Under the pieces are notes generated by a model that did not search any database, had not been told where the DNA came from, and was given only the letters and a program-made list of their open reading frames with translations. Made by a program: the position numbers and the translations under genes. From Mesorhizobium sp. AR10 (GTDB lineage: Bacteria > Pseudomonadota > Alphaproteobacteria > Rhizobiales > Rhizobiaceae): DNA of 64,000 nt. Shown piece after piece: positions 30,728 to 45,200 of this stretch. Positions within the stretch are counted from its first letter, which is position 1; each line of letters starts with the position of its first letter. The DNA lies in the NCBI RefSeq assembly GCF_024746795.1, contig NZ_CP080524.1:4442001-4506000 (forward strand), read 5' to 3'.

Positions 30728-31942
30728 TCAGATGCGCTTGGAGAGCCGGCGGAACCAGGCCATGGCCGGCATTTCGACAAAGCGCCAGGTGAACCACGAG
30801 GCAGCGATGGTGGCGATCAGCATGGCGACGATCGCGGCGAGCCCTACCCATGGTGAGCTGGTGCCGAAACCTGTCACGTCGTCGCCCCGCAGCCAGATGT
30901 CGCCGATGAGCCCGAGCCCAAGCTTGCGCTCGATTAAGCCCGCGACGTTGATCATGCGCGCCTGCACGAAGATGTGGACCATATAGATGGAATAGGAGAG
31001 CGCCCCGAGCGTCAGCATGGCAGGGGTGCGCAGCATGGCGCTGATCCAGCCGCCTTCATGGGCAAAGAGGTAGAGCGCCAGTGCGAACACGAAGGGCGCC
31101 GCGATCCCCGCGTCGTTGTCGCCGGCCAGCGAGACGAACAGGACAATCACCACGACCATCACGACCTCGGCCAGCGTCCAGGCCATTCGCGCGCCGTCCC
31201 TGGCCAGCGCCTGTCGTGCCGCTGCAATGGAATCATGCTGAAACCACGCCAGCAGCGCACCAAGCGAAAAACCGTACAGGCAGCGGATGAAGCCGAAATC
31301 GAAGGACACGTCCATATGACGGGTCGAGACCGCAAGCAGGAACAGCGGCGCGGTGACGGCCGCGGCAACGAACCAGATCCAGGCCCGTTGGCCCGCGGCA
31401 AAGACGACGCCGGCAAACAGCATATAGGCGAAGAACTCGGCCGAAATGCTCCAGCTTGGCGCATTCCAGCTCAAATGGTCCGCAAAACCCATGCCTTGCA
31501 GCAGGAACAGATTGGCGAGAAAGCTCTTGAGGTCGAAGCCGCCGGTGAAAGGCGCGGCCCCGGTGCCGTGCAATTGCGGCAGAACCAGCCGCAGAGTCTC
31601 GAAAGCGGCGAAGGCGAGCAGCATGACGAGATGCAGCGGGTAGATGCGGCCGAAGCGGACCAGCGCGAAGCGGGTGAACTCATCGGGCTCGTCCAACCGG
31701 CTGGCGTAGCTGCTGGCGATGACGAAGCCGGACAGCACGAAGAAGAAATCGACGAAGAGATAGGACGAGCCGACGAAGGCGCTTTGCGAAATCGCCGAGC
31801 TGGTCGGAAAATGAAACACCGCGACCAGCAGTGCGCAGATGCCGCGCCAGGAATCGAGAACCAGGAAGCGTTCGCCGGCTTTCGTGCCGGTTTGGATCGT
31901 TGCCGTGACACGGGTCGGATTGAGAAACGCGGTCTGCGTCAT
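30728..31942 (-). CDS. Acyltransferase family 3 membrane protein
   Basis: A 404-residue integral membrane acyltransferase (OafA/NodX-like), adding acetyl or other acyl groups to exported sugars. FLVLDSWRGICALLVAVFHF includes the conserved Arg and His of the first helix; FVDFFFVLSGFVIA is the second signature; about ten membrane helices follow. ATG 31942 (MTQTAFLNP) starts the domain; upstream in-frame codons to 32110 are unlikely because they overlap the divergent agmatinase gene. It lies outside the polysaccharide locus at 35.5 kb but could modify its product. Confidence 0.87.
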   Translation of the reverse strand: MTQTAFLNPTRVTATIQTGTKAGERFLVLDSWRGICALLVAVFHFPTSSAISQSAFVGSSYLFVDFFFVLSGFVIASSYASRLDEPDEFTRFALVRFGRIYPLHLVMLLAFAAFETLRLVLPQLHGTGAAPFTGGFDLKSFLANLFLLQGMGFADHLSWNAPSWSISAEFFAYMLFAGVVFAAGQRAWIWFVAAAVTAPLFLLAVSTRHMDVSFDFGFIRCLYGFSLGALLAWFQHDSIAAARQALARDGARMAWTLAEVVMVVVIVLFVSLAGDNDAGIAAPFVFALALYLFAHEGGWISAMLRTPAMLTLGALSYSIYMVHIFVQARMINVAGLIERKLGLGLIGDIWLRGDDVTGFGTSSPWVGLAAIVAMLIATIAASWFTWRFVEMPAMAWFRRLSKRI

Positions 31943-32066
31943 GATGATACAAATCCTGTTTTGCCATGGCACCTGCGGAGCGCCATTTCGTCTCGCCAAG
32001 CTGTGACTGGCATGTTCCGTGCCGGTTCTGTAGTTGTTGCACCCCGATGAAAAACGAGGATCCGTA

Positions 32067-33068
32067 ATGGCGAACCAAAATATCGACCACGCCTTCACCG
32101 CCCGTTCCAAAACGGGCGCGTCCTTCGAGCCGACCTATGCCGGCGCGCTGTCGTTCATGCGGCGCAAATACACGAAGGACGTGAAGGGCGCGGACGCCGT
32201 GGTGTGGGGCATTCCCTTCGACGCAGCCGTCACCAACCGGCCGGGCGCACGCTTCGGGCCGCAGGCGATCCGCCGCGCTTCGACCATCCTCGACAACGAC
32301 CCGCAATATCCGTTTTCGCGCGATCTGTTCGAACATCTCGCGGTGGTCGACTATGGCGATTGCCTGCTCGACAGCGGCAACCATCAGAAGACACCGGGGA
32401 CCATCGAACGCGAGGCGGCAAAAATCCTGAAGTCGGGCGCCTTCCTGCTGTCGCTGGGCGGCGACCATTTCGTCACCTGGCCGCTGCTCAAGGCGCATGC
32501 CGCCATCCATGGACCGCTGGCGCTGGTGCAGTTCGACGCCCATCAGGACACCTGGCCGGACGACGGCAAGCGCATCGACCATGGTTCGTTCGTCGGCCGC
32601 GCCGTCAACGAGGGCATTATCGACCCCGACCGTTCGATCCAGATCGGCATCCGCACCCATGCGCCGGATACGTTCGGCATCAAGATCCTCTACGGCCACG
32701 AAATCGAGGAGATGCGGGCGTCCGACATCGCCTATGCCATCGTCGATCGCACCGGTGGCAAGAAGACCTACCTCACCTTCGACATCGACTGCCTTGATCC
32801 GGCCTTCGCGCCGGGCACCGGTACGCCGGTCGCCGGCGGCCCGTCTTCGGCGAAGATCCTGTCGACACTGCGCCAGCTCGGTCAGGTCGACATTGTCGGC
32901 GCCGATGTCGTCGAGGTTGCGCCGGCCTATGACCATGCCGATATAACGGCGATCGCCGGTTCGATGGTGGCCATGCAGTATCTCGGGCTGCTGGCGGAGC
33001 GAAAGGCCCGGCTCGGCGAGATGAACAACGGCAATCATGTTGCAGTGAATAACGCAAGCGGCATATAG
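32067..33068 (+). CDS. speB: Agmatinase/ureohydrolase
   Basis: A 333-residue binuclear manganese ureohydrolase that converts agmatine to putrescine and urea. Metal ligands are in SLGGDHFVTW, QFDAHQDTW and TFDIDCLDPAFAPGTGTP, and GARFGPQAIRRAS is the family's N-terminal loop. The second motif reads DAHQD as in agmatinases. Guanidinobutyrase or a related amidinohydrolase is the main alternative. It is followed by argC after 30 bases, so arginine-related metabolism may be coordinated. ATG 32067 is chosen; a codon at 32034 lacks a ribosome site. Confidence 0.88.
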   Translation: MANQNIDHAFTARSKTGASFEPTYAGALSFMRRKYTKDVKGADAVVWGIPFDAAVTNRPGARFGPQAIRRASTILDNDPQYPFSRDLFEHLAVVDYGDCLLDSGNHQKTPGTIEREAAKILKSGAFLLSLGGDHFVTWPLLKAHAAIHGPLALVQFDAHQDTWPDDGKRIDHGSFVGRAVNEGIIDPDRSIQIGIRTHAPDTFGIKILYGHEIEEMRASDIAYAIVDRTGGKKTYLTFDIDCLDPAFAPGTGTPVAGGPSSAKILSTLRQLGQVDIVGADVVEVAPAYDHADITAIAGSMVAMQYLGLLAERKARLGEMNNGNHVAVNNASGI

Positions 33069-35571: not shown

Positions 35572-36630
35572 TCAGATGGTCACCACCATCTTGCCGGCAT
35601 TGGCCAGCGGTGTCGTCACCCCCGACAGCATCGTGCGGATATGGGCGACGCTCTGGTAGCGGCCATTGACCGAAATGCGCGGCAGCGCATGCAGGAAGCC
35701 TGAATGTTCCGCACGCAGCACGCCGTGGCGCGTCGTCACCGCCGAGGCATAGCCGGCGTCGCGGGCATAGCCCACTTCGCGGCAGCCGACGGCGCTGGCA
35801 TAGCCGTAGGGATAGGCGAGATGCTGCGGCTCCTCGCCCAACTCCGCCTGCAATATGCGCCTGACGTCATTGAGCTCGTGGCGCGCATCGGCTTCTGAAA
35901 GCCGCTTCAGATTGCGATGGTTGACCGTATGCGCGCCGATCGTCACCAAGGGATGTGCGGCCATGGTGCGGATTTCGTCCCAATTCATCAGTGTCCGGTG
36001 GCGCGGCTCGTCGAGTTCGATGCCGTTCGAGCGCGCCAGTTCGCGCAGCACCGCAGGCTGGTCCTCTTCGCGGACCTCCAGCGTCAGATAGGCATGCAGG
36101 CGGGCATTGGCCTGAAGTTTCTTGCCCGCTGTCGAGCAATCGATGGTCACCGGCCCGGCCGGCGTCTTCAGCGTCAACCGGTCGCGCGCGTTGACGATGT
36201 CCTCGACCACGTCCCACCACAGATCGGCGGCGCCGTTGATCAGCCCCGGTGCGACATAGATGGTGATCGGCGCGCCGTGCTTTTCCAGCACCGGCAGCGC
36301 CTCGGTCATGTTGTCGCGATAGGCATCATCGGCGGTGATAGTGGCGAACTGGCCGCCTTTGCCGCCGGCCTCGATGCGCTCGATCGCCTCGTCAAGCGAG
36401 ACGAAGGCGTAGCCATTCGCCTTCATGTCGGCGATCACGGCGTCGAGGAACTGTGGCGCTATGTTGAGATGCCGGTTGACGCTGTCAGGCTTTTCCGGGG
36501 TCGCGGTCACCCGGTGCAGCATCAGGATGGCGCCGATGCCGCCGACAAACGGCTTGGCCAGCGGTGCAAGGCCGGTAAAGCGGGCGACGTTGAGCGCCAG
36601 TTTCCGGATTGCCTCGCCCCCGTCGATCAT
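35572..36630 (-). CDS. Polysaccharide deacetylase family protein
   Basis: A 352-residue NodB-fold hydrolase that removes N-acetyl groups from polysaccharides. ITADDAYRDNM carries the catalytic and metal-binding Asp pair, and TIGAHTVNHRN carries the two metal-binding histidines. Motif 3 is present as HLAYPYG. No signal peptide is visible, so it may act in the cytoplasm or with the membrane assembly machinery. It stands at the edge of the polysaccharide locus beside an acyltransferase, as HfsH does in Caulobacter holdfast synthesis. Confidence 0.88.
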   Translation of the reverse strand: MIDGGEAIRKLALNVARFTGLAPLAKPFVGGIGAILMLHRVTATPEKPDSVNRHLNIAPQFLDAVIADMKANGYAFVSLDEAIERIEAGGKGGQFATITADDAYRDNMTEALPVLEKHGAPITIYVAPGLINGAADLWWDVVEDIVNARDRLTLKTPAGPVTIDCSTAGKKLQANARLHAYLTLEVREEDQPAVLRELARSNGIELDEPRHRTLMNWDEIRTMAAHPLVTIGAHTVNHRNLKRLSEADARHELNDVRRILQAELGEEPQHLAYPYGYASAVGCREVGYARDAGYASAVTTRHGVLRAEHSGFLHALPRISVNGRYQSVAHIRTMLSGVTTPLANAGKMVVTI

Positions 36631-36721
36631 TCATTCACCTTTTACGCCTAGGCTCATCCAAGCACCGAACGCGCCTATGCGAACCCCTAAATTGCGATGA
36701 ATACGCCCTAAGGATTGAGGT

Positions 36722-37954
36722 ATGGTTGACGCCACCGCGTCATTTGACGGCAATCGGCTCGCGGCAAGCGAGGCGTCGCCGCGCGCGGTTCCGATCGACC
36801 AAACCGGCCTGTCGGTCTCGGTTGCCGACCGTGCTGCACTCGCGGCCTACGCGCAATTCAGCCGCTCAGTCCTGTTTGCCCCGGCGCAGAGCGCCTCCTG
36901 GATCTTGAACTGGACCGCACAGACCGGGCCTGACATCCTCGTGGCGACGCTGAGCGCTGAAGGCAGGCCGGTTTTTGCGCTGGCGCTCGAAGTTGTCCGC
37001 AGCGGCCCGTTTCGTGTTGCCCGCTTCATGGGCGGCCGCCATGCCAACGGCAATTTCGCTGCCGCCGATCCGCGCTGGCTGGCCAAGGCGGACAGTTCTG
37101 CCATCCGCTCGATGCTGGCGGCCATCCGCAAGAGCCGGCCGGATATCGACCTCATCGCGCTGGAACGGCTGTTGCCAGATCTGGATGGCGTTGCCAATCC
37201 GCTCGCGGCCTTCCCGCATTTTCCGAGCCCCAACCTGTCTCTCGCCGTCGACCTCGTCGGCGGTTTCGACGCACTGCTGGCGCGCGCGAGCGGCAAGCGC
37301 AAGCGCAAGAAGCATCGCTCGCAGACGCGCAAGTTCGAGGCTGTCGGCAGCCACCGTCGCATCGAGGCCAAAACTCCGGACGAAGTGAACCGGCTGCTCG
37401 ACGCCTTCTTCGAGATGAAGGAATTCCGCTTCCGCAAGATGGGTATCGCCAATGTCTTCGGTGATGGCCAGGTGCGCGCCTTCTTCCGTGCGCTGTTCGT
37501 TGAAGCGCTTGCAGAGGAAAACCCATCCTTCCTGCTGCATGGGCTCGAGGTCGCCGGCAAGCTTCGCGCGGTGACCGGATCGAGTCGGTCGGGCAAACGG
37601 CTGATCTGCGAATTCGGCGCGATCGCCGAGGACGATCTCGGCCACACCAGCCCCGGCGACTTCCTTTTCTTCGACAATATCCAGGAAGCCTGCGAGACGG
37701 GTTTTGCCGTCTATGATTTCTCGGTCGGCGACGAACCCTACAAGCGGCTGTGGTGCGATATCGAAACGCAGCATTTCGAGGTGCTGTTTCCCTTGACGCT
37801 GAAGGGCCGCGCGCTGGCGCTTGTCCTGCAGCAGGGCGCGCGGTTGAAGGCCTTCATCAAGAACAGCCCGACGATCTGGAAACTGACCAAGATGCTGCGC
37901 CGCAAGGCCGCCGGACAGACGGCGCCCGCCGCCGCTGGCGACGACGACAGCTGA
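36722..37954 (+). CDS. GNAT/CelD-like N-acyltransferase
   Basis: A 410-residue protein of the BcsL/CelD-like GNAT group found in polysaccharide gene clusters. The GNAT core is in the C-terminal half: FFEMKEFRFRKMGIANVF, LEVAGKLRAVTGSSRSGKRLICEFGA and the acceptor end PGDFLFFDNIQEACETGFAVYDFS. It would transfer an acyl group to an amino sugar or amino acid of the polymer. A basic stretch KRKRKKHRSQTRK lies near residues 193-205. It is divergent from the deacetylase and convergent with the co-polymerase gene. HfsK of the holdfast pathway is a comparable protein. Confidence 0.85.
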   Translation: MVDATASFDGNRLAASEASPRAVPIDQTGLSVSVADRAALAAYAQFSRSVLFAPAQSASWILNWTAQTGPDILVATLSAEGRPVFALALEVVRSGPFRVARFMGGRHANGNFAAADPRWLAKADSSAIRSMLAAIRKSRPDIDLIALERLLPDLDGVANPLAAFPHFPSPNLSLAVDLVGGFDALLARASGKRKRKKHRSQTRKFEAVGSHRRIEAKTPDEVNRLLDAFFEMKEFRFRKMGIANVFGDGQVRAFFRALFVEALAEENPSFLLHGLEVAGKLRAVTGSSRSGKRLICEFGAIAEDDLGHTSPGDFLFFDNIQEACETGFAVYDFSVGDEPYKRLWCDIETQHFEVLFPLTLKGRALALVLQQGARLKAFIKNSPTIWKLTKMLRRKAAGQTAPAAAGDDDS

Positions 37955-38015
37955 CGGCTGTCGGAATTTCGAGACCTTTAAGTGAGATGACCTCTGAGTG
38001 GAACGGAGGGCGACC

Positions 38016-40202
38016 TCAGGCCGCCGACCGCCGCCGTCCCGGCCACGGATTCCCCGGCGTCTCGTGACCAATCGGCGTCACCAGCGTCAGGTCGGGATAG
38101 CCGCTCTCGATCAGCTTGACCGCAGCCTGCGCCACCTCGTCATCCGACTCCAGCATGGAGAGGAAGACCTCGGTGCCCTCGCCCACCAGACGGCTGATGC
38201 CTTGCGCGTCGGCGGGTCCGCATTCGACGATGACCAGATCGTATGCGGTGGTCAGCGACTGCATGATGATCGGCAACCTGTCGGCGGCACGCATGGCGCG
38301 AACCGGATCGGCTGTCCCGACGGGAATGACGTGGCAGTCCGAATAGAGATCGGGATGGATGACGTCGCTGAACTGCGCTTCGGAGGCGAGCAGATTGGTG
38401 ATGCCCGGGAAAAGCCCGCTGTCCAGCATCGGCCGCGAGGCGGCACCCGAAGCGGTGAGATCGAGCAGCAGCACGCGCAAGCCGGCGTCGGAGACTTCGC
38501 GCGCCACCAGAACCGCCGTGGCGGCCGCCTCGTCGCCTTCCGGCGAAACGAAGATGGCGCGGGCCGCGCCGCTGGCGATCAGTTTTTCCGCTGCCTTCTC
38601 GACATCGATCTCGCCGAGTCTGGAGCGGACAGGTTCGGCGTCCCCGGCGGTCGTTTCCGCCACGGCAGCCGCTCCTTGCGGCTCCGCCTCGGCTTCGGCC
38701 ACTGCGTGATGATCGCCGGCTTCCGCGATCTCGACAATCGCGGGCTCCTGCTGGGCAGCCGGCATCGCAACCTGCTCGATGCGCTCGAAGCTGGCGCCGG
38801 GGGCCGGGCGCATGGCGCGGCCCGAAAACAATTCCTGGAGAAGCGTCACGATCGCCATCAGCAGCAGCGAGCCGACGAAGGCCGCGCTGACGATCGGGAC
38901 GATCTTCGGGAAATAGGGCTCGGAGGGCTTCCGCGCGTCGGAAAACACACTGGCATCGACCGGCAGGTAGTTACGAACCTTGCGCGAGGATGCTTCACGG
39001 AAGCTGGTCATGTAGGATTCGAGTTGCTGGCGCCGGGCGGTCGCTTCGCGCTGCAGCGCATCGAGTTCGACCTGCTCTTCGCCGGCGCGCGCCGATGCGG
39101 CCTTCAGCGTGTTGACGTCTGATATGAGCTGGTTTTCGCGGGCCTGTGCGGTCTGCGCCTGCGTCAGCAGCCCCTTCATGATCTTTTGCGCCTCGTTGCG
39201 GATCTGGCCATCGAGATCGGCGAGCTGCGACTTCAGCGCCCGGATACGCGGATGGTTGTCGAGCAGTGTCGTGGAAAGATCGGCAATGTTGGTCTTCAGT
39301 TCGACCTGCCGCTCGCGCAGGCGCTGGATCAGATCGGAAGACAGCACCTCCGGTACGGCATCCAGCGAGCCGCCATTCTGCAATGCCCTGCGCACGCTGT
39401 CGGCGGTTGCTTCCGCCGAAGCGCGGTTGGCGCGCACGCGCGACAGTTCGGTCGACAGTTCGGACAATTGTTGCGTCGCCAGCACCGCATTGTTGCCGCC
39501 CATAAAGAGGCCCGACTCGGCACGGTAGTTGGCGACCTTGGCCTCGGCATCCCTGACCTGCTTCTGCAGCTCGGTAATTTCCGGCCCCAGAAAGGCGGTG
39601 GCGGCAGAATTCGAATCGGTCTTCGCCTTGCCCTGGTAGGCGATGTAGGCGGCGGCGATGGCGTTGGCGATGACGGCGGCAAGCTCGGGATCCTCGGAGG
39701 AAAATTCGATGGCGATGGCGCGCGTTTTTTCAACGCTGTAGACGTTGAGCTTCTCGCGCATCTTCTCCAGCACGCGCTCTTCCTGCGGAACCTCTTCGGG
39801 ATCGCTTTTGAGGCCGGCAATGACGAGAAAACGGCTCAACGGCGACATGTTGACGGCGTCGTCGAACTCGGGGAGCCGTGCCAGATTGAGATTCACGGCC
39901 ACCTGATTGAGAATGTCGGAGGAAGAGGAAATAACCTGGACCTCGGTGGCCACACCTTCCGCATCGAGGACAGGCTTGTCGTCGTCATTGGTGCCGGCAG
40001 GTCGGGTGAAGGCCGATTCGTTCATCTGGATCTTCAGCATGGCCGCGGCCTTGTAGTGCGGCGTGGCAAGCCAGGCGAGCACGAATGCCAGGCCGGCAAC
40101 GGCCAGAGCCACCACGAGAATACGCAGCCAGTTCCTCGCAAGACTTGCGAAGAGTTGCCTGAGATCGATATCGACGTCTGCGGCCGCGGACTGAACGGAC
40201 AT
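38016..40202 (-). CDS. Wzz/GumC-type polysaccharide co-polymerase with degenerate kinase domain
   Basis: A 728-residue inner-membrane chain-length protein. The Wzz domain runs from about residue 12, with membrane spans near 24-45 and 430-452, a long periplasmic coiled-coil region between them, and the Pro-rich motif SEPYFPKIVP before the second span. After residue 550 comes a bacterial-tyrosine-kinase-like domain, but the Walker A Lys/Ser-Thr are lost (SPEGDEAAATAVLV), Walker A' is LLDLTASG, Walker B reads VIVECGP, and no tyrosine-rich tail is present. It can set export and length control but should not autophosphorylate. Start MSVQSAAADVDIDLRQL at 40202. Confidence 0.92.
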   Translation of the reverse strand: MSVQSAAADVDIDLRQLFASLARNWLRILVVALAVAGLAFVLAWLATPHYKAAAMLKIQMNESAFTRPAGTNDDDKPVLDAEGVATEVQVISSSSDILNQVAVNLNLARLPEFDDAVNMSPLSRFLVIAGLKSDPEEVPQEERVLEKMREKLNVYSVEKTRAIAIEFSSEDPELAAVIANAIAAAYIAYQGKAKTDSNSAATAFLGPEITELQKQVRDAEAKVANYRAESGLFMGGNNAVLATQQLSELSTELSRVRANRASAEATADSVRRALQNGGSLDAVPEVLSSDLIQRLRERQVELKTNIADLSTTLLDNHPRIRALKSQLADLDGQIRNEAQKIMKGLLTQAQTAQARENQLISDVNTLKAASARAGEEQVELDALQREATARRQQLESYMTSFREASSRKVRNYLPVDASVFSDARKPSEPYFPKIVPIVSAAFVGSLLLMAIVTLLQELFSGRAMRPAPGASFERIEQVAMPAAQQEPAIVEIAEAGDHHAVAEAEAEPQGAAAVAETTAGDAEPVRSRLGEIDVEKAAEKLIASGAARAIFVSPEGDEAAATAVLVAREVSDAGLRVLLLDLTASGAASRPMLDSGLFPGITNLLASEAQFSDVIHPDLYSDCHVIPVGTADPVRAMRAADRLPIIMQSLTTAYDLVIVECGPADAQGISRLVGEGTEVFLSMLESDDEVAQAAVKLIESGYPDLTLVTPIGHETPGNPWPGRRRSAA

Positions 40203-40449
40203 GCATTCCTGCTCCGGAACTTGAGTCTAGTCTGCACCGTAAACAACTATGGTAACTCAGCCGTTAAGATCGAGGTAAGCACCCGTCAGGGTTTGGTGAC
40301 GGGCGGCAAACAAAGACCGGAAAACGAGCCGCATCGGCCGCGCACCTTTACCGGCCATTAACCCTAACGGGATGATAACGACGTCAGTTCCCTTAAGGTT
40401 TGCCGCGCAGTGTCCAGGCGGCCAGAGCGATGAAGGTACGTGTCCGGTC
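40203..40449. promoter_or_regulatory. Divergent promoter region of the polysaccharide locus
   Basis: 247 bases between the co-polymerase gene and the exporter gene, presumably with both promoters. A palindrome CCCGTCA-N8-TGACGGG (40282-40303) lies near the middle and is a candidate operator or hairpin. No clear -10/-35 pair could be assigned. Confidence 0.4.
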
Positions 40450-41013
40450 ATGAAAAGCACTGCTTCCCTGTTTCGTGCTCTGGTTGCCGTGTCGATGCTT
40501 GCCGGCTGCTCCAGCTACCGTCCAACCCCTGCCGCGTTCCATCAAGCGCTCGACCAGCCCTACCGGCTCGGCGCCGGCGACCGCGTCCGCGTCACCGTGT
40601 TCGAGCAGGACGGATTGACCAACACCTACAGCGTCGACCAGTCCGGCTACCTCTCCTTCCCGCTGGTCGGCGCCGTGCCGGCACGCGGTCACACGGCCCA
40701 GCAACTCGAGGGCGAACTCGCCGACAAGTTGCGGCAGGGCTATCTGCGCGATCCGGATGTGTCGGTCGAGATCGACCGCTACCGGCCGATCTTCGTCATG
40801 GGTGAAGTGGGTGCTGCCGGTCAGTATTCCTACGTGCCCGGCCTGACAGTGCAGAAAGCGATCGCCATCGCCGGCGGCTTCACCCCGCGCGCCAACCAGG
40901 AAAGCGTCGACATCACCCGCGACATCAACGGCAAGGTGATGACCGGGCGTGTGGTCACGTCAGACCCGCTGCTGCCCGGCGATACCGTCTACGTCCGCGA
41001 ACGCCTGTTCTAG
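40450..41013 (+). CDS. Polysaccharide export outer-membrane lipoprotein (OPX family)
   Basis: A 187-residue short Wza relative. The signal sequence ends in the lipobox LAGC at residues 17-20, so Cys20 is lipidated. The Poly_export domain follows (YRLGAGDRVRVTVFEQDGL, DQSGYLSFPLVG) and one SLBB-type domain (FVMGEVGAAGQYSYVPGLTV). Its length, without the extra SLBB domains and C-terminal helix of Wza, matches short OPX proteins such as HfsD/UppC types. Starts the plus-strand operon exporter - GT - sugar transferase - polymerase. Confidence 0.92.
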   Translation: MKSTASLFRALVAVSMLAGCSSYRPTPAAFHQALDQPYRLGAGDRVRVTVFEQDGLTNTYSVDQSGYLSFPLVGAVPARGHTAQQLEGELADKLRQGYLRDPDVSVEIDRYRPIFVMGEVGAAGQYSYVPGLTVQKAIAIAGGFTPRANQESVDITRDINGKVMTGRVVTSDPLLPGDTVYVRERLF

Positions 41014-41018
41014 ACCAC

Positions 41019-42197
41019 GTGGCGGACACACTCAGGATCGTCCATTGCTTTCGCTCACCCGTCGGAGGGATATTCCGGCATGTGCGCGACCTCACCGAGG
41101 CGCAGCTCGCCGCCGGTCATTCCGTCGGCATCGTCTGCGATTCGACCACCGGCGGCGAATTCGAGGAGCGGCTGTTCGCGCAAATGAAGGACAGCCTGGC
41201 GCTCGGCATCCATCGCACGCCGATGCAGCGGCATGTCGGGCCGGGCGACCTCGCGTCGGCCTGGCGCACTTACAGAATCATCAAGGAATTGCGGCCGGAC
41301 GTGCTCCACGGGCACGGCGCCAAGGGTGGCGCCTATGCCCGCCTGTTCGGCTCATTGTTGCGGGTATCAAGGTCTCGCGTCGCCCGCCTTTATTCGCCGC
41401 ATGGCGGCTCTCTCCACTATGACGAGAACACGACCACGGGGAAGCTGTTCTTCGCGCTCGAACGCTTCATGGGACGCTTCACCGACTACCTGCTGTTCGT
41501 CTCCGACTATGAGAGACGAACCTATCGCAGGAAGGTCGGCGAGCCGCCTGTACCCAATAGCCTGGTCTACAACGGCCTGCGCGCCGCGGAATTCGAGCAG
41601 GTCGCGACCCAACCGGACGCGGCCGATCTCCTCTATATCGGCATGATGCGCGATCTGAAGGGACCCGACATCTTCATCGATGCGCTGGCGCTGGCCGCAA
41701 TGCGGCTTGGCCGGCCGGTCGCCGCGGTGATGGTCGGCGACGGCGATGACCTGCCGCGCTACCATGCGCAGGTGAAGCGGCTGGGGCTCGACGACCATGT
41801 CCGCTTCCTGCCGCCGATGCAGGCGCGCGAGGCCTTTGCACTGGCGCACATGGTTGTCGTTCCTTCGCGCGCCGAAGCGATGCCCTATATCGTGCTGGAG
41901 ACGCTGGCCGCCGGGCGGCCGATGATCGCCACCGCCGTCGGCGGCATACCGGAAATTTTCGGCGCCGGCTCGCCTGCCCTGATCCGGCCCGACCCGCGCC
42001 AACTCAGCGACAAGGTGAGCGAGGCGCTGGCCGACCCCGGCGCTTACATCAGCCTGATGCCGGATACCGCCAGCCTCAAGGCGCGCTTCGGCGCCGACGT
42101 CATGGCCGCCGAGATCGAGAAGGCCTATTTCGCCGCTCTCGGCCGCCAGCCACTGGGGACCGCTCCAAAGCCACCTGTTGCTTCAAGGCTTTCTTAG
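41019..42197 (+). CDS. Glycosyltransferase family 4
   Basis: A 392-residue GT-B fold enzyme beginning with GTG 5 bases after the exporter stop. N-terminal acceptor domain: RIVHCFRSPVGGIFRHVRDL; C-terminal donor domain: LLYIGMMRDLKGPDIFI and VVPSRAEAMPYIVLETLAAGRP with the E-x7-E motif of retaining GT4 enzymes. It likely adds a sugar to the lipid-linked repeat unit in the cytoplasm. No ribosome site of note. Confidence 0.92.
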   Translation: MADTLRIVHCFRSPVGGIFRHVRDLTEAQLAAGHSVGIVCDSTTGGEFEERLFAQMKDSLALGIHRTPMQRHVGPGDLASAWRTYRIIKELRPDVLHGHGAKGGAYARLFGSLLRVSRSRVARLYSPHGGSLHYDENTTTGKLFFALERFMGRFTDYLLFVSDYERRTYRRKVGEPPVPNSLVYNGLRAAEFEQVATQPDAADLLYIGMMRDLKGPDIFIDALALAAMRLGRPVAAVMVGDGDDLPRYHAQVKRLGLDDHVRFLPPMQAREAFALAHMVVVPSRAEAMPYIVLETLAAGRPMIATAVGGIPEIFGAGSPALIRPDPRQLSDKVSEALADPGAYISLMPDTASLKARFGADVMAAEIEKAYFAALGRQPLGTAPKPPVASRLS

Positions 42198-42241
42198 CTC
42201 TCTTTTGCTATTCACGTGAAGCAAGCTCGCGGGAAGTTCCA

Positions 42242-43777
42242 ATGAAGGAAATCGACCCTGCGCGCCGCTTTTCGGCCGATGCGGTGCGCAAATTCGACGG
42301 TCCTGCCGAAGGCGACACGCCCGGCAGCCTGAACAACGTTGCCCGACAGGTCGCCTCGCAGTATCGGCGCGATACGATGTCGCCGATCATGGTCAGCGGC
42401 GTGTTGCGCATGGTCGAATTCGGGCTGCTGTTCCTGTCCGGCCTCGGCCTCTATTTCCACTATGTCGGCTTCTTCACCTATCTGGCCTGGCAATATCCGC
42501 TGACCATTGCCGCCGCCTCGTTGGTCGCCGTGGTGCTGCTCGACGTCAGCGACTGCTATCAGATCGTCGCCTTGCTGCGGCCGATCGCCAATTTCGGCCG
42601 CATGCTTATGGTCTGGGCCGGCACCTACGCCTTGATGGCGCTGACGGCCTTCACCCTGAAGATATCGGAGGACTATTCGCGCCTGCTGTTCGGCACCTGG
42701 TTCGTGGTCGGCTTCGTGCTGATCTTCGGCCTCAGGCTGGTGATGTCGAAGCTGATCCGGAGCTGGGCGCGCGACGGGCGCATGGAGCGCCGCGCCGTCA
42801 TCGTCGGCGGCGGCAAGGCAGCGGAAATGCTTATCCGCTCGGTCGAAAAGCAGCCCTACAACGACATCCGTATCTGCGGCATCTTCGACGACCGCGACGA
42901 CAAGCGCTCACCGCCGATCGTTGCCGGCTATCCGAAGCTTGGCAACATTTCCGAATTGATCGAATTCGCCCGCATCGCCCGCATCGACATGCTGATCGTC
43001 TCGCTGCCGCTGACCGCCGAAACGCGCGTCCTGCAGCTGTTGAAGAAGTTGTGGGTGCTGCCGGTCGATATCCGGCTGTCGGCGCACTCGAACGCACTGC
43101 AGTTCCGCCCGCGCGCCTATTCCTACATCGGCTCGGTGCCGATGCTCGACATCTTCGACAAGCCGATCAACGACTGGGATTCGGTGGCCAAACGCGCCTT
43201 CGACATCGTCTTCTCGATCATCGGCATCGTCCTGTTCTCACCAGTCATGCTGGCCACGGCCATCGCCATCAAACTCGACAGCAAGGGACCGGTGCTGTTT
43301 CGCCAGAAGCGGCACGGCTTCAACAACGAGGTCGTCGAGGTCTACAAGTTCCGGTCGATGTACACCGACCGGGCTGATCCGACCGCCAAACAGACGGTGA
43401 CCAAGAACGATCCGCGCGTGACTCGCGTCGGCCGCTTCATCCGCAAGAGCTCGATCGACGAACTGCCGCAGTTCTTCAACTCGCTGCTGGGTTCGCTGTC
43501 GCTGGTCGGTCCGCGCCCACACGCCATTGCCGCCCAGTCGCACAACCTGCTCTATAACGAAGTGGTCGACGGCTATTTCGCCCGCCACAAGGTCAAGCCC
43601 GGCGTTACCGGCTGGGCGCAGATCAACGGCTGGCGCGGCGAGATGGACACCAACGAGAAGATCCGGATGCGGACGGAATTCGACCTCCATTACATCGAGA
43701 ACTGGTCGCTGCTGTTCGACTTGCGGATCCTGCTGCTGACGCCGATGCGGCTGCTCAACACGGAAAACGCGTATTGA
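42242..43777 (+). CDS. Undecaprenyl-phosphate sugar phosphotransferase (WcaJ/HfsE type)
   Basis: A 511-residue initiating transferase that loads the first sugar phosphate onto undecaprenyl phosphate. N-terminal four to five membrane helices (about residues 60-170) and a CoA_binding_3-like domain (RRAVIVGGGKAAEMLIRS) precede the catalytic part: KRAFDIVFSIIGIVLFSP membrane entry, QKRHGFNN, EVYKFRSMYTD, SSIDELPQFFNSLLGSLSLVGPRP. These are the hallmarks of WcaJ/UppE/HfsE. Next gene overlaps its stop by 4 bases. Confidence 0.94.
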   Translation: MKEIDPARRFSADAVRKFDGPAEGDTPGSLNNVARQVASQYRRDTMSPIMVSGVLRMVEFGLLFLSGLGLYFHYVGFFTYLAWQYPLTIAAASLVAVVLLDVSDCYQIVALLRPIANFGRMLMVWAGTYALMALTAFTLKISEDYSRLLFGTWFVVGFVLIFGLRLVMSKLIRSWARDGRMERRAVIVGGGKAAEMLIRSVEKQPYNDIRICGIFDDRDDKRSPPIVAGYPKLGNISELIEFARIARIDMLIVSLPLTAETRVLQLLKKLWVLPVDIRLSAHSNALQFRPRAYSYIGSVPMLDIFDKPINDWDSVAKRAFDIVFSIIGIVLFSPVMLATAIAIKLDSKGPVLFRQKRHGFNNEVVEVYKFRSMYTDRADPTAKQTVTKNDPRVTRVGRFIRKSSIDELPQFFNSLLGSLSLVGPRPHAIAAQSHNLLYNEVVDGYFARHKVKPGVTGWAQINGWRGEMDTNEKIRMRTEFDLHYIENWSLLFDLRILLLTPMRLLNTENAY

Positions 43778-45087
43778 GCGCGGTTTCCCACGAGCTGCCA
43801 CCGGCCGCGGTCAACACGTTGCCGCCTTCGGCGGTCAACGCCAAGCTGATCGCGCTGATTGCGTCAGGCGCGGTTTTCCTCGGCGTCTTTCTCTCAGGCT
43901 TCGTCATCGACGAACCGGCGCCCTACGATCTCTACATGGTCGGACTGATCGCGGTTTGGGCGCTGTTTGGCCTGCGCATATCGCGCGCGGCGGTGCCGCT
44001 GCTGGTGCTGCTGGTGACGATGAACATCGGTGGCATGATCTCGATGACGCAGATGTCGGACCTCGCCAGCACGCCGCTCTATCTCTCCGTCTCGCTGTTC
44101 CTCGCCTTCACCGCGGTGTTCTTCGCCTCGGTGACAGCCGTCCAGCCCAGCCTATACCGGCTGATCTTCTTCGCCTATGTCGTCTCCGCGGTGCTGACCT
44201 CGCTGCTCGGCATTGCTGGCTATTTCCACGCCTTCCCCGGCGCCGAGATCTTCACCAAATACGACCGCGCCGCCGGCGCCTTCCAGGATCCGAACGTGTT
44301 CGGGCCGTTCCTGGTGCTACCCGGCATCTATCTGCTCTATCTCCTGCTGACGGGGTCGATCGCGCGCATGCCGCTGCTGGCGGTGCCGCTGCTGATCATC
44401 ACCGCCGGCATCTTCTTCTCCTTCTCGCGCGGCGCCTGGGGCATGTTCGCCGTCTCGGCGATCCTGCTCACCGGCGCCCTGTTCCTGCAAAGCGCCAGCG
44501 GCAAATTCCGGCTGCGCGTCGTTGTCATGACCATTGTAGCCATCGCGCTGCTGGTCATCGCGATGGTCGTCATCCTGCAGCTTCCCGGCGTGTCCGAAAT
44601 GTTTTCCAGCCGCGCCCAGCTGGAACAGAGCTATGACAGCGCCCGCCTCGGCCGCTTCGCCCGCTACGCGATCGGCTTTGAGATGGCGCTGGAACATCCG
44701 TTCGGCATCGGCCCGCTGGTCTTCGGCACGATCTTTGGCGAAGACACCCACGACATCTGGCTGAAGATGCTGATGGACTATGGCTGGCTCGGCTTCGTCT
44801 CTTTCCTGGCGCTGACCTTGTGGACGATAGCAGCCGGCTTCCGCATTCTCCTGCGCGACCGGCCATGGCAGCCCTATCTTCTGTGCGCCTATGTCGCCTT
44901 CATCGGCAATATCGGGCTCGGCACCTTCATCGACATCGATCACTGGCGCCACCTCTATCTGCTGCTTGGCCTGATCTGGGGCGCCATCGCGCTCGAATAC
45001 CGCCACCAGCGGCAGTTGCGACCGGCGGCGCTGCCGGCGCCTGCGGGGCCAATTCCATCAGGCAGGAAAGCCGCCGAATTCGGTTGA
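43774..45087 (+). CDS. O-antigen ligase/Wzy-type polymerase
   Basis: A 437-residue membrane protein with about 11 helices. The Wzy_C region includes AAGAFQDPNVFGPFLVLPGI, FFSFSRGAWGMFAVSA and the large periplasmic loop ending GEDTHDIWLKMLMDYGWLGF, the signature H-x-D/N region of O-antigen ligases and polymerases. It likely polymerises or transfers the repeat unit at the periplasmic face. TTG start at 43774 overlaps the previous stop (TTGA). The last codons overlap the promoter of tRNA-Pro. Confidence 0.9.
   Translation: MSAVSHELPPAAVNTLPPSAVNAKLIALIASGAVFLGVFLSGFVIDEPAPYDLYMVGLIAVWALFGLRISRAAVPLLVLLVTMNIGGMISMTQMSDLASTPLYLSVSLFLAFTAVFFASVTAVQPSLYRLIFFAYVVSAVLTSLLGIAGYFHAFPGAEIFTKYDRAAGAFQDPNVFGPFLVLPGIYLLYLLLTGSIARMPLLAVPLLIITAGIFFSFSRGAWGMFAVSAILLTGALFLQSASGKFRLRVVVMTIVAIALLVIAMVVILQLPGVSEMFSSRAQLEQSYDSARLGRFARYAIGFEMALEHPFGIGPLVFGTIFGEDTHDIWLKMLMDYGWLGFVSFLALTLWTIAAGFRILLRDRPWQPYLLCAYVAFIGNIGLGTFIDIDHWRHLYLLLGLIWGAIALEYRHQRQLRPAALPAPAGPIPSGRKAAEFG

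Positions 45088-45123: not shown

Positions 45124-45200
<77 letters not shown>

Follow-up and report, generated by a model that had tools for sequence, protein, structure and literature searches.

Which polymer is made by the polysaccharide genes at positions 35572-45087 of a 64-kb stretch of Mesorhizobium sp. AR10 DNA (the window; G000:C2:4442001-4506000, G000 being the study genome)? The initial annotation, made from the sequence alone, assigned these genes to an attachment polysaccharide, either a holdfast or a unipolar adhesin, and not to bulk exopolysaccharide (EPS). Systems of the unipolar polysaccharide (UPP, upp) kind lay down a sticky sugar polymer at one end of the cell, used for attachment to roots and other surfaces. 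On the basis of homology, gene order, neighboring genes, and distribution, we consider that these genes very probably (probability about 0.9) represent the uppABCDEF core set for UPP in a Mesorhizobium, together with a deacetylase gene that shares the locus in this lineage.

According to excerpts of the published work, the uppABCDEF genes of Agrobacterium tumefaciens correspond to Atu1235-1240, with uppE as an hfsE homolog, and neither Wzx nor Wzy had been identified there (PMC4018554); they form two adjacent operons whose deletion abolishes prominent polar binding (PMC4046570). Further excerpts describe uppC as Wza-type and uppE as a WbaP-type initiating transferase, report lower root attachment of Bradyrhizobium after deletion of uppC or uppE (PMC12727192), and show that a Caulobacter hfsE/pssY/pssZ mutant regains its holdfast with the initiating transferases of Rhizobium leguminosarum and Brucella ovis (PMC11340318).

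The locus was compared with its counterparts in two samples, which share some genomes, so their counts are not additive: 45 loci fetched around the gene encoding the polyprenyl-phosphate hexose-1-phosphate transferase (PHPT) in family genomes, and the best 80 of 576 confirmed loci among named genomes with four further loci (84 in total). The usual order in the first sample is ctaA, DUF2842, the deacetylase where present, GNAT, co-polymerase (on the opposite strand), OPX, GT4, PHPT, Wzy_C, merR, and ihfA. PHPT and OPX are found in all 45 loci, the co-polymerase in 43, GNAT, GT4, and Wzy_C in 41 each, DUF2842 in 43, ctaA in 42, and the deacetylase in 14. G138, a genome of this sample, has a 100% match to a Sinorhizobium sojae plasmid. 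All six core genes occur together in 41/45 and 75/84 loci, respectively. The nine incomplete loci of the larger sample comprise two reduced loci (L133, L134), three short stretches (L164, L190, L202), three without GNAT upstream (L208, L210, L211), and one with PHPT alone (L130). Because the counterparts keep order and strands in most loci examined, the seven genes of the window are regarded as real. A PHPT match was found in 185 of the 199 family genomes, a few of these being paralogues only, and 10 of the 14 genomes without a match have 2 Mb or less. Among eight Mesorhizobium-named loci, PHPT identity is 89-92% in six, and 81% and 76% in the other two.

The correspondence extends to the best-known relatives. 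A. tumefaciens UMA610 (L089/L135) carries the six genes in the order and on the strands seen in the window, at the ctaA-DUF2842 site, and annotated Sinorhizobium meliloti Ak57 carries the six core genes in the window's order and strands at the corresponding site. On one side, this chromosomal site is bordered by argC, ctaA, and DUF2842 in both Agrobacterium and Sinorhizobium; on the other flank, merR and ihfA were found in S. meliloti, and the A. tumefaciens stretch did not show them. The window thus shares six core genes, their order, strands, and flanks with the upp clusters of these Rhizobiales, as well as the lack of Wzx at the locus, and differs from them in the linked deacetylase; the S. 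meliloti locus differs in turn by a metallophosphatase, a CatB-type O-acetyltransferase, and a second GT4. The R. leguminosarum gms glucomannan system is listed with upp among the closest known systems. OPX stands third and PHPT fifth among the six ordered genes, which agrees with the printed types of uppC and uppE. All six core proteins match those of A. tumefaciens and S. meliloti, at 34-67% identity.

Seven open reading frames (ORFs) were recovered across 35572-45087, and the parts list of the initial annotation was borne out by Pfam. The first core gene (36722-37954, + strand; uppA by order only) encodes a GNAT/CelD-like acyltransferase (Acetyltransf_6, PF13480, E 3e-22) with 34% identity to both the A. 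tumefaciens and S. meliloti counterparts and no PDB match by sequence search. It is followed by the gene of the polysaccharide co-polymerase (38016-40202, - strand; uppB by order only; Wzz, PF02706, E 3e-11; TIGR01005), with 41-44% identity to the same species. The short OPX outer-membrane export lipoprotein (40372-41013, + strand; uppC by order and type; Poly_export, PF02563, and SLBB, E 9e-24; lipobox LAGC) reaches 63-67% identity, and its start more likely lies at 40450 than at 40372. The GT4 glycosyltransferase (41019-42197, + strand; uppD by order only; PF13692/PF13579, E 2e-24) is 55-57% identical to its counterparts. PHPT, a WcaJ-type enzyme (42242-43777, + strand; uppE by order and type; Bac_transf and CoA_binding_3, E 2e-64), is 58-59% identical and exceeds the NCBIfam cut-off of TIGR03023 (WcaJ), with 478.5 vs 410.75 bits. 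The start of the next gene, which encodes the Wzy_C polymerase/ligase (43774-45087, + strand; uppF by order only; PF04932, E 1e-13; 54-56% identity), overlaps the PHPT stop. Upstream of the core lies the gene of a polysaccharide deacetylase of CE4/NodB fold (35572-36630, - strand; Polysacc_deac_1, PF01522, E 3e-20), in which the TADD and HTxxH motifs are kept; in the sequence search of PDB, the deacetylase and the co-polymerase gave weak matches. As initially annotated, the block has no Wzx: no flippase of family PF01943 was found in the 64-kb window, other flippase families not being searched, and five PF01943 flippases are encoded elsewhere in the study genome. No CtrA-type sites (TTAA N6-8 TTAA) occur within the window.

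The co-polymerase was initially annotated as Wzz-type, and the Wzz domain is indeed present; the protein is, however, not a plain Wzz, since it carries a C-terminal kinase-like domain of about 200 residues that lacks catalytic motifs (residues 530-728; 38019-38615, - strand), namely the Walker A lysine and a tyrosine cluster. By sequence search of PDB, this domain weakly matches the BceF and Wzc kinase structures. We aligned 121 co-polymerase sequences. These are the ORFs exceeding 600 residues in 129 loci, one of which is the locus of the window; shorter ones were dropped, and some genomes are represented twice. None of the 121 has GK[ST] at the Walker A column, where the residue is G in 94 and A in 27, whereas all six controls, taken from 25 listed rows (four annotated tyrosine autokinases and two unannotated proteins), have it. 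The last 40 residues contain 0-2 tyrosines in the co-polymerases vs 3-6 in the controls. Judged by these motifs, the co-polymerase is a Wzz protein fused to a dead tyrosine-kinase domain. Such fusions are already in print, and the feature is therefore a known one: the available part of PMC12004946 names fused pseudokinase co-polymerases including SMc01795 and Mlr8439, with Mesorhizobium japonicum represented, and describes HfsB as a pseudokinase. What is added here is that the loss of the Walker A lysine holds in all sequences examined. The window protein resembles BY-pseudokinase PCP-2 systems (EcpK/EpsV, HfsB/HfsA, and fused forms) in having a kinase-like domain without the Walker A lysine or tyrosine tail, and differs from the split forms in the fusion of this domain to Wzz.

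Two other identities for the locus were weighed against UPP. Synthesis of bulk, succinoglycan-like EPS appears very improbable. The co-polymerase does pass TIGR01005, "exopolysaccharide transport" (761 vs 411.7 bits), a broad family whose name does not separate UPP from EPS. The succinoglycan exo set comprises several glycosyltransferases and an active ExoP kinase. Among the seven genes of the window, there is a single GT4 and no sugar-nucleotide gene, and the co-polymerase, with its Walker A lysine absent, is a pseudokinase, unlike ExoP, which is described as autophosphorylating in the available part of PMC4182512; exo content was compared by description, with no Exo protein aligned. Counterparts also stand at the matching place in most family loci. 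It is still less credible that the block is a true hfs locus, whether obtained from Caulobacterales or common to both groups. The Caulobacter holdfast genes (hfsEFGHCBAD with hfsJ and hfsK) have an initiating transferase, an OPX protein, and a pseudokinase co-polymerase in common with the window, and the deacetylase and GNAT are parts of the same kinds as HfsH and HfsK. No other protein of the study genome scores as high against the HfsE family as the window PHPT (338.7 bits, the next 215.7), a score far below the 750-bit cut-off, above which no HfsE match was found in 289 class-level genomes. The two best HfsE scores among these (624 and 608 bits; G671 and G456) provided hfs-like comparators of 20 kb each (L258 and L259), ending near the cluster's end. 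PHPT matches both stretches at 38-40% identity, and their HfsB-like proteins likewise lack GK[ST]. L259 additionally matches OPX (31%) and, weakly, a stretch of the co-polymerase (24%); L258, which stops short of its own OPX, shows neither match. GNAT, GT4, Wzy, and the deacetylase have no match at E 1e-3 in either stretch; the missing Wzy and deacetylase matches say little, because the stretches do not show hfsC or hfsH, which need not lie there. By reading, a gene resembling Wzx and a stand-alone kinase-like gene are also present in the hfs-like stretches, Caulobacter HfsA and HfsB are separate proteins whereas the window co-polymerase is fused, and the housekeeping neighbors of the locus differ from those in Caulobacter and are those of upp in Rhizobiaceae. 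Considering the HfsE score, the chromosomal site, and the protein comparison, the holdfast identity was set aside. Of the two adhesins initially proposed, the homology and synteny therefore favor UPP, and with it an attachment polysaccharide and not bulk EPS.

A third question is whether the deacetylase belongs to the pathway or is a chance neighbor. It lies on the strand opposite to the adjoining GNAT gene, and 31 of the 45 genomes of the first sample lack it at this place. Deacetylase matches at E 1e-3, some of them weak, occur in 157/199 family genomes, and the strong ones fall into two classes, linked and unlinked, the latter mostly at 29-40% identity. Sixteen unlinked places were fetched, nine of which have common housekeeping neighbors (tldD-, pdxH-, fabI-, and aroC-like, by reading). 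A tree built from 20 linked and 16 unlinked deacetylases separates the classes save for L118, a linked protein grouping with the unlinked class, and L248, an unlinked protein grouping with the linked class. That one sequence of either class falls on the side of the other speaks against a chance neighbor. Down to E 1.8e-41, only G132 (in two pieces) and G153 are listed twice. The unlinked relative in A. tumefaciens UMA610 (L242) is a 747-residue protein fused to an ATP-grasp domain, which makes its equivalence less sure.

The main argument for a role in the pathway comes from genomes with a reduced locus. Among 47 genomes initially known to carry the locus, all 43 with a full one have a deacetylase at E 1.8e-41 or better, and the four with a reduced one (G028, G041, G108, G137) have no match. 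For 11 further genomes in which no strong deacetylase was found, a reduced locus was predicted beforehand; the prediction held in eight (G008, G018, G023, G042, G102, G127, G151, G174) and failed in three: G150 and G086 are full, and in G077, where the contig measures 4.2 kb, GT4 and Wzy_C are present. As seen after the fact, the G150 deacetylase is cut by the contig end. For G108, G137, G102, G127, G151, and G174, the lack of a match was read from absence in the complete list of matching genomes. Of nine positive controls (eight preset and G036), seven are full, and G001 is cut by the contig end before Wzy_C. Altogether, a deacetylase is found in 0/12 reduced genomes, and a strong one, linked or not, in 52/55 others (Fisher p 8e-11, a value that ignores kinship and comes from a sample partly chosen by deacetylase status). 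These counts make a chance neighbor unlikely.

Several observations weigh against UPP identity or against the place of the deacetylase in it. Strain C58 is absent among the best 80 named loci, and the Agrobacterium link is made through UMA610 and gene order. Linkage of the deacetylase to the locus is limited to 14 of 45 genomes, and Mesorhizobium alhagi-like G086 (L279/L207) has a full locus with short deacetylase remnants between DUF2842 and GNAT. The ninth control, G009, has a deacetylase, yet its site keeps PHPT and Wzy_C without OPX, co-polymerase, GT4, or GNAT. The WecG (HfsJ-type) gene, finally, is not strictly co-conserved with the locus.

Mapped onto a PHPT tree that covers 70 loci, the reduced label requires at least seven changes of state, gains or losses, one of which is the pair L133/L134, outside the deacetylase count (six without that pair, by reading). 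Relatives of the window Wzy_C are absent genome-wide from 12/12 reduced genomes and present in 6/6 full ones, and other polymerase families may occur. GNAT relatives are absent or weak genome-wide in 11/12 reduced genomes, G108 having two at 32-33% identity. Part of the co-polymerase, always including kinase-domain sequence, remains in 13/14 reduced loci, and L092 has no co-polymerase match. Both ends are kept in L105, L106, and L274, which miss approximately residues 190-400, the periplasmic part; L133, L134, L090, and L271 retain the kinase part only, free-standing and, on a crude hydropathy count, devoid of membrane segments, unlike the window; and L269 is nearly whole. The remnants in L090, L271, and L272 give weak matches (E 5e-4 to 8e-9).

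We tentatively propose that upp loci exist in two states, the reduced one apparently reached several times. The full state might couple an adhesin cassette (GNAT, GT4, Wzy_C, and the periplasmic part of the co-polymerase) to a deacetylase anywhere in the genome and yield a deacetylated adhesin. In the reduced state, the cassette might be dropped together, with PHPT, OPX, and mostly the dead kinase kept, the last sometimes as a free soluble protein. If so, the dead-kinase domain would partner PHPT and OPX more generally, in the service of a second polymer, and would not be only a co-polymerase module. The kind of system is known; the co-loss of the deacetylase may be new, as judged from open-licence literature that was searched little for the deacetylase.

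Genes outside the core were considered as partners. A WecG (HfsJ-type) match occurs in 158/199 genomes; it was rejected as a strict partner, since full-locus G015 and G024 have no match and reduced G018, G023, G041, G102, and G137 keep a strong one. An unlinked WecG and GT4 pair at about G000:C2:6108573-6110536 (L097) is a candidate partner. A gene at window positions 30728-32110, upstream of the locus, encodes an OafA-type acyltransferase (by reading), and the A. tumefaciens UPP needs the OafA-type UppZ according to the available part of PMC11340318. The gene was set aside as UppZ: it has no match in the stretches of the 45 and 84 loci, many of which end before that position, and weak matches (34% and 31%) near 2/20 loci (L272 and L287).

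Other features were noted around the locus and its relatives. A tRNA-Pro lies directly downstream (45124-45200), and an integrase-like ORF (by eye) follows Wzy_C in one relative (L204:12956-14068); the edge of the locus may therefore be an island insertion site. Three Mesorhizobium-side loci have a gene for an FKBP-like protein of 147 residues (by eye) between the GNAT and co-polymerase genes (L096:14943-15386, L204:4840-5283, L209:4800-5243), which is absent from the window. The lone UppE-like transferase of L130 (69%), on plasmid pT1293c of Phyllobacterium sp. T1293, adjoins glycosyltransferase and HlyD genes near RuBisCO genes. The 3.72-Mb S. meliloti record CP090106.1 (L129), labelled plasmid pSymB, contains rplM, rpsI, plsX, and other chromosomal genes, and its plasmid label looks wrong.

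In the pathway that we envisage from the protein families, UppE would transfer glucose-1-phosphate onto undecaprenyl phosphate, and the repeat would be built by GT4 together with transferases encoded elsewhere, of which one may be WecG-type, and acylated by the GNAT enzyme. An unlinked Wzx would flip the repeat, and the Wzy_C protein would polymerise it. The co-polymerase would set the length and dock on OPX; its dead kinase domain would serve as a scaffold and not work through tyrosine phosphorylation. OPX would release the polymer at one pole. The deacetylase may then free amino groups, leading to sticking and cohesion, as proposed for HfsH in the holdfast. The roles given to the deacetylase and GNAT follow those of HfsH, which promotes holdfast adhesion at high ionic strength (PMC8449245, in part), and HfsK, a GNAT protein likened to FemX and needed for holdfast cohesion (PMC5362036, in part).

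The studied Mesorhizobium thus very likely carries a standard rhizobial polar adhesin locus with a deacetylase inside it, and this locus could readily be mutated in studies of root attachment. From the co-loss, it can be argued on comparative grounds that the UPP pathway includes a deacetylase also in genomes where the gene lies elsewhere, and in the naturally reduced genomes, the shared parts of the machinery could be separated from the adhesin-specific ones.

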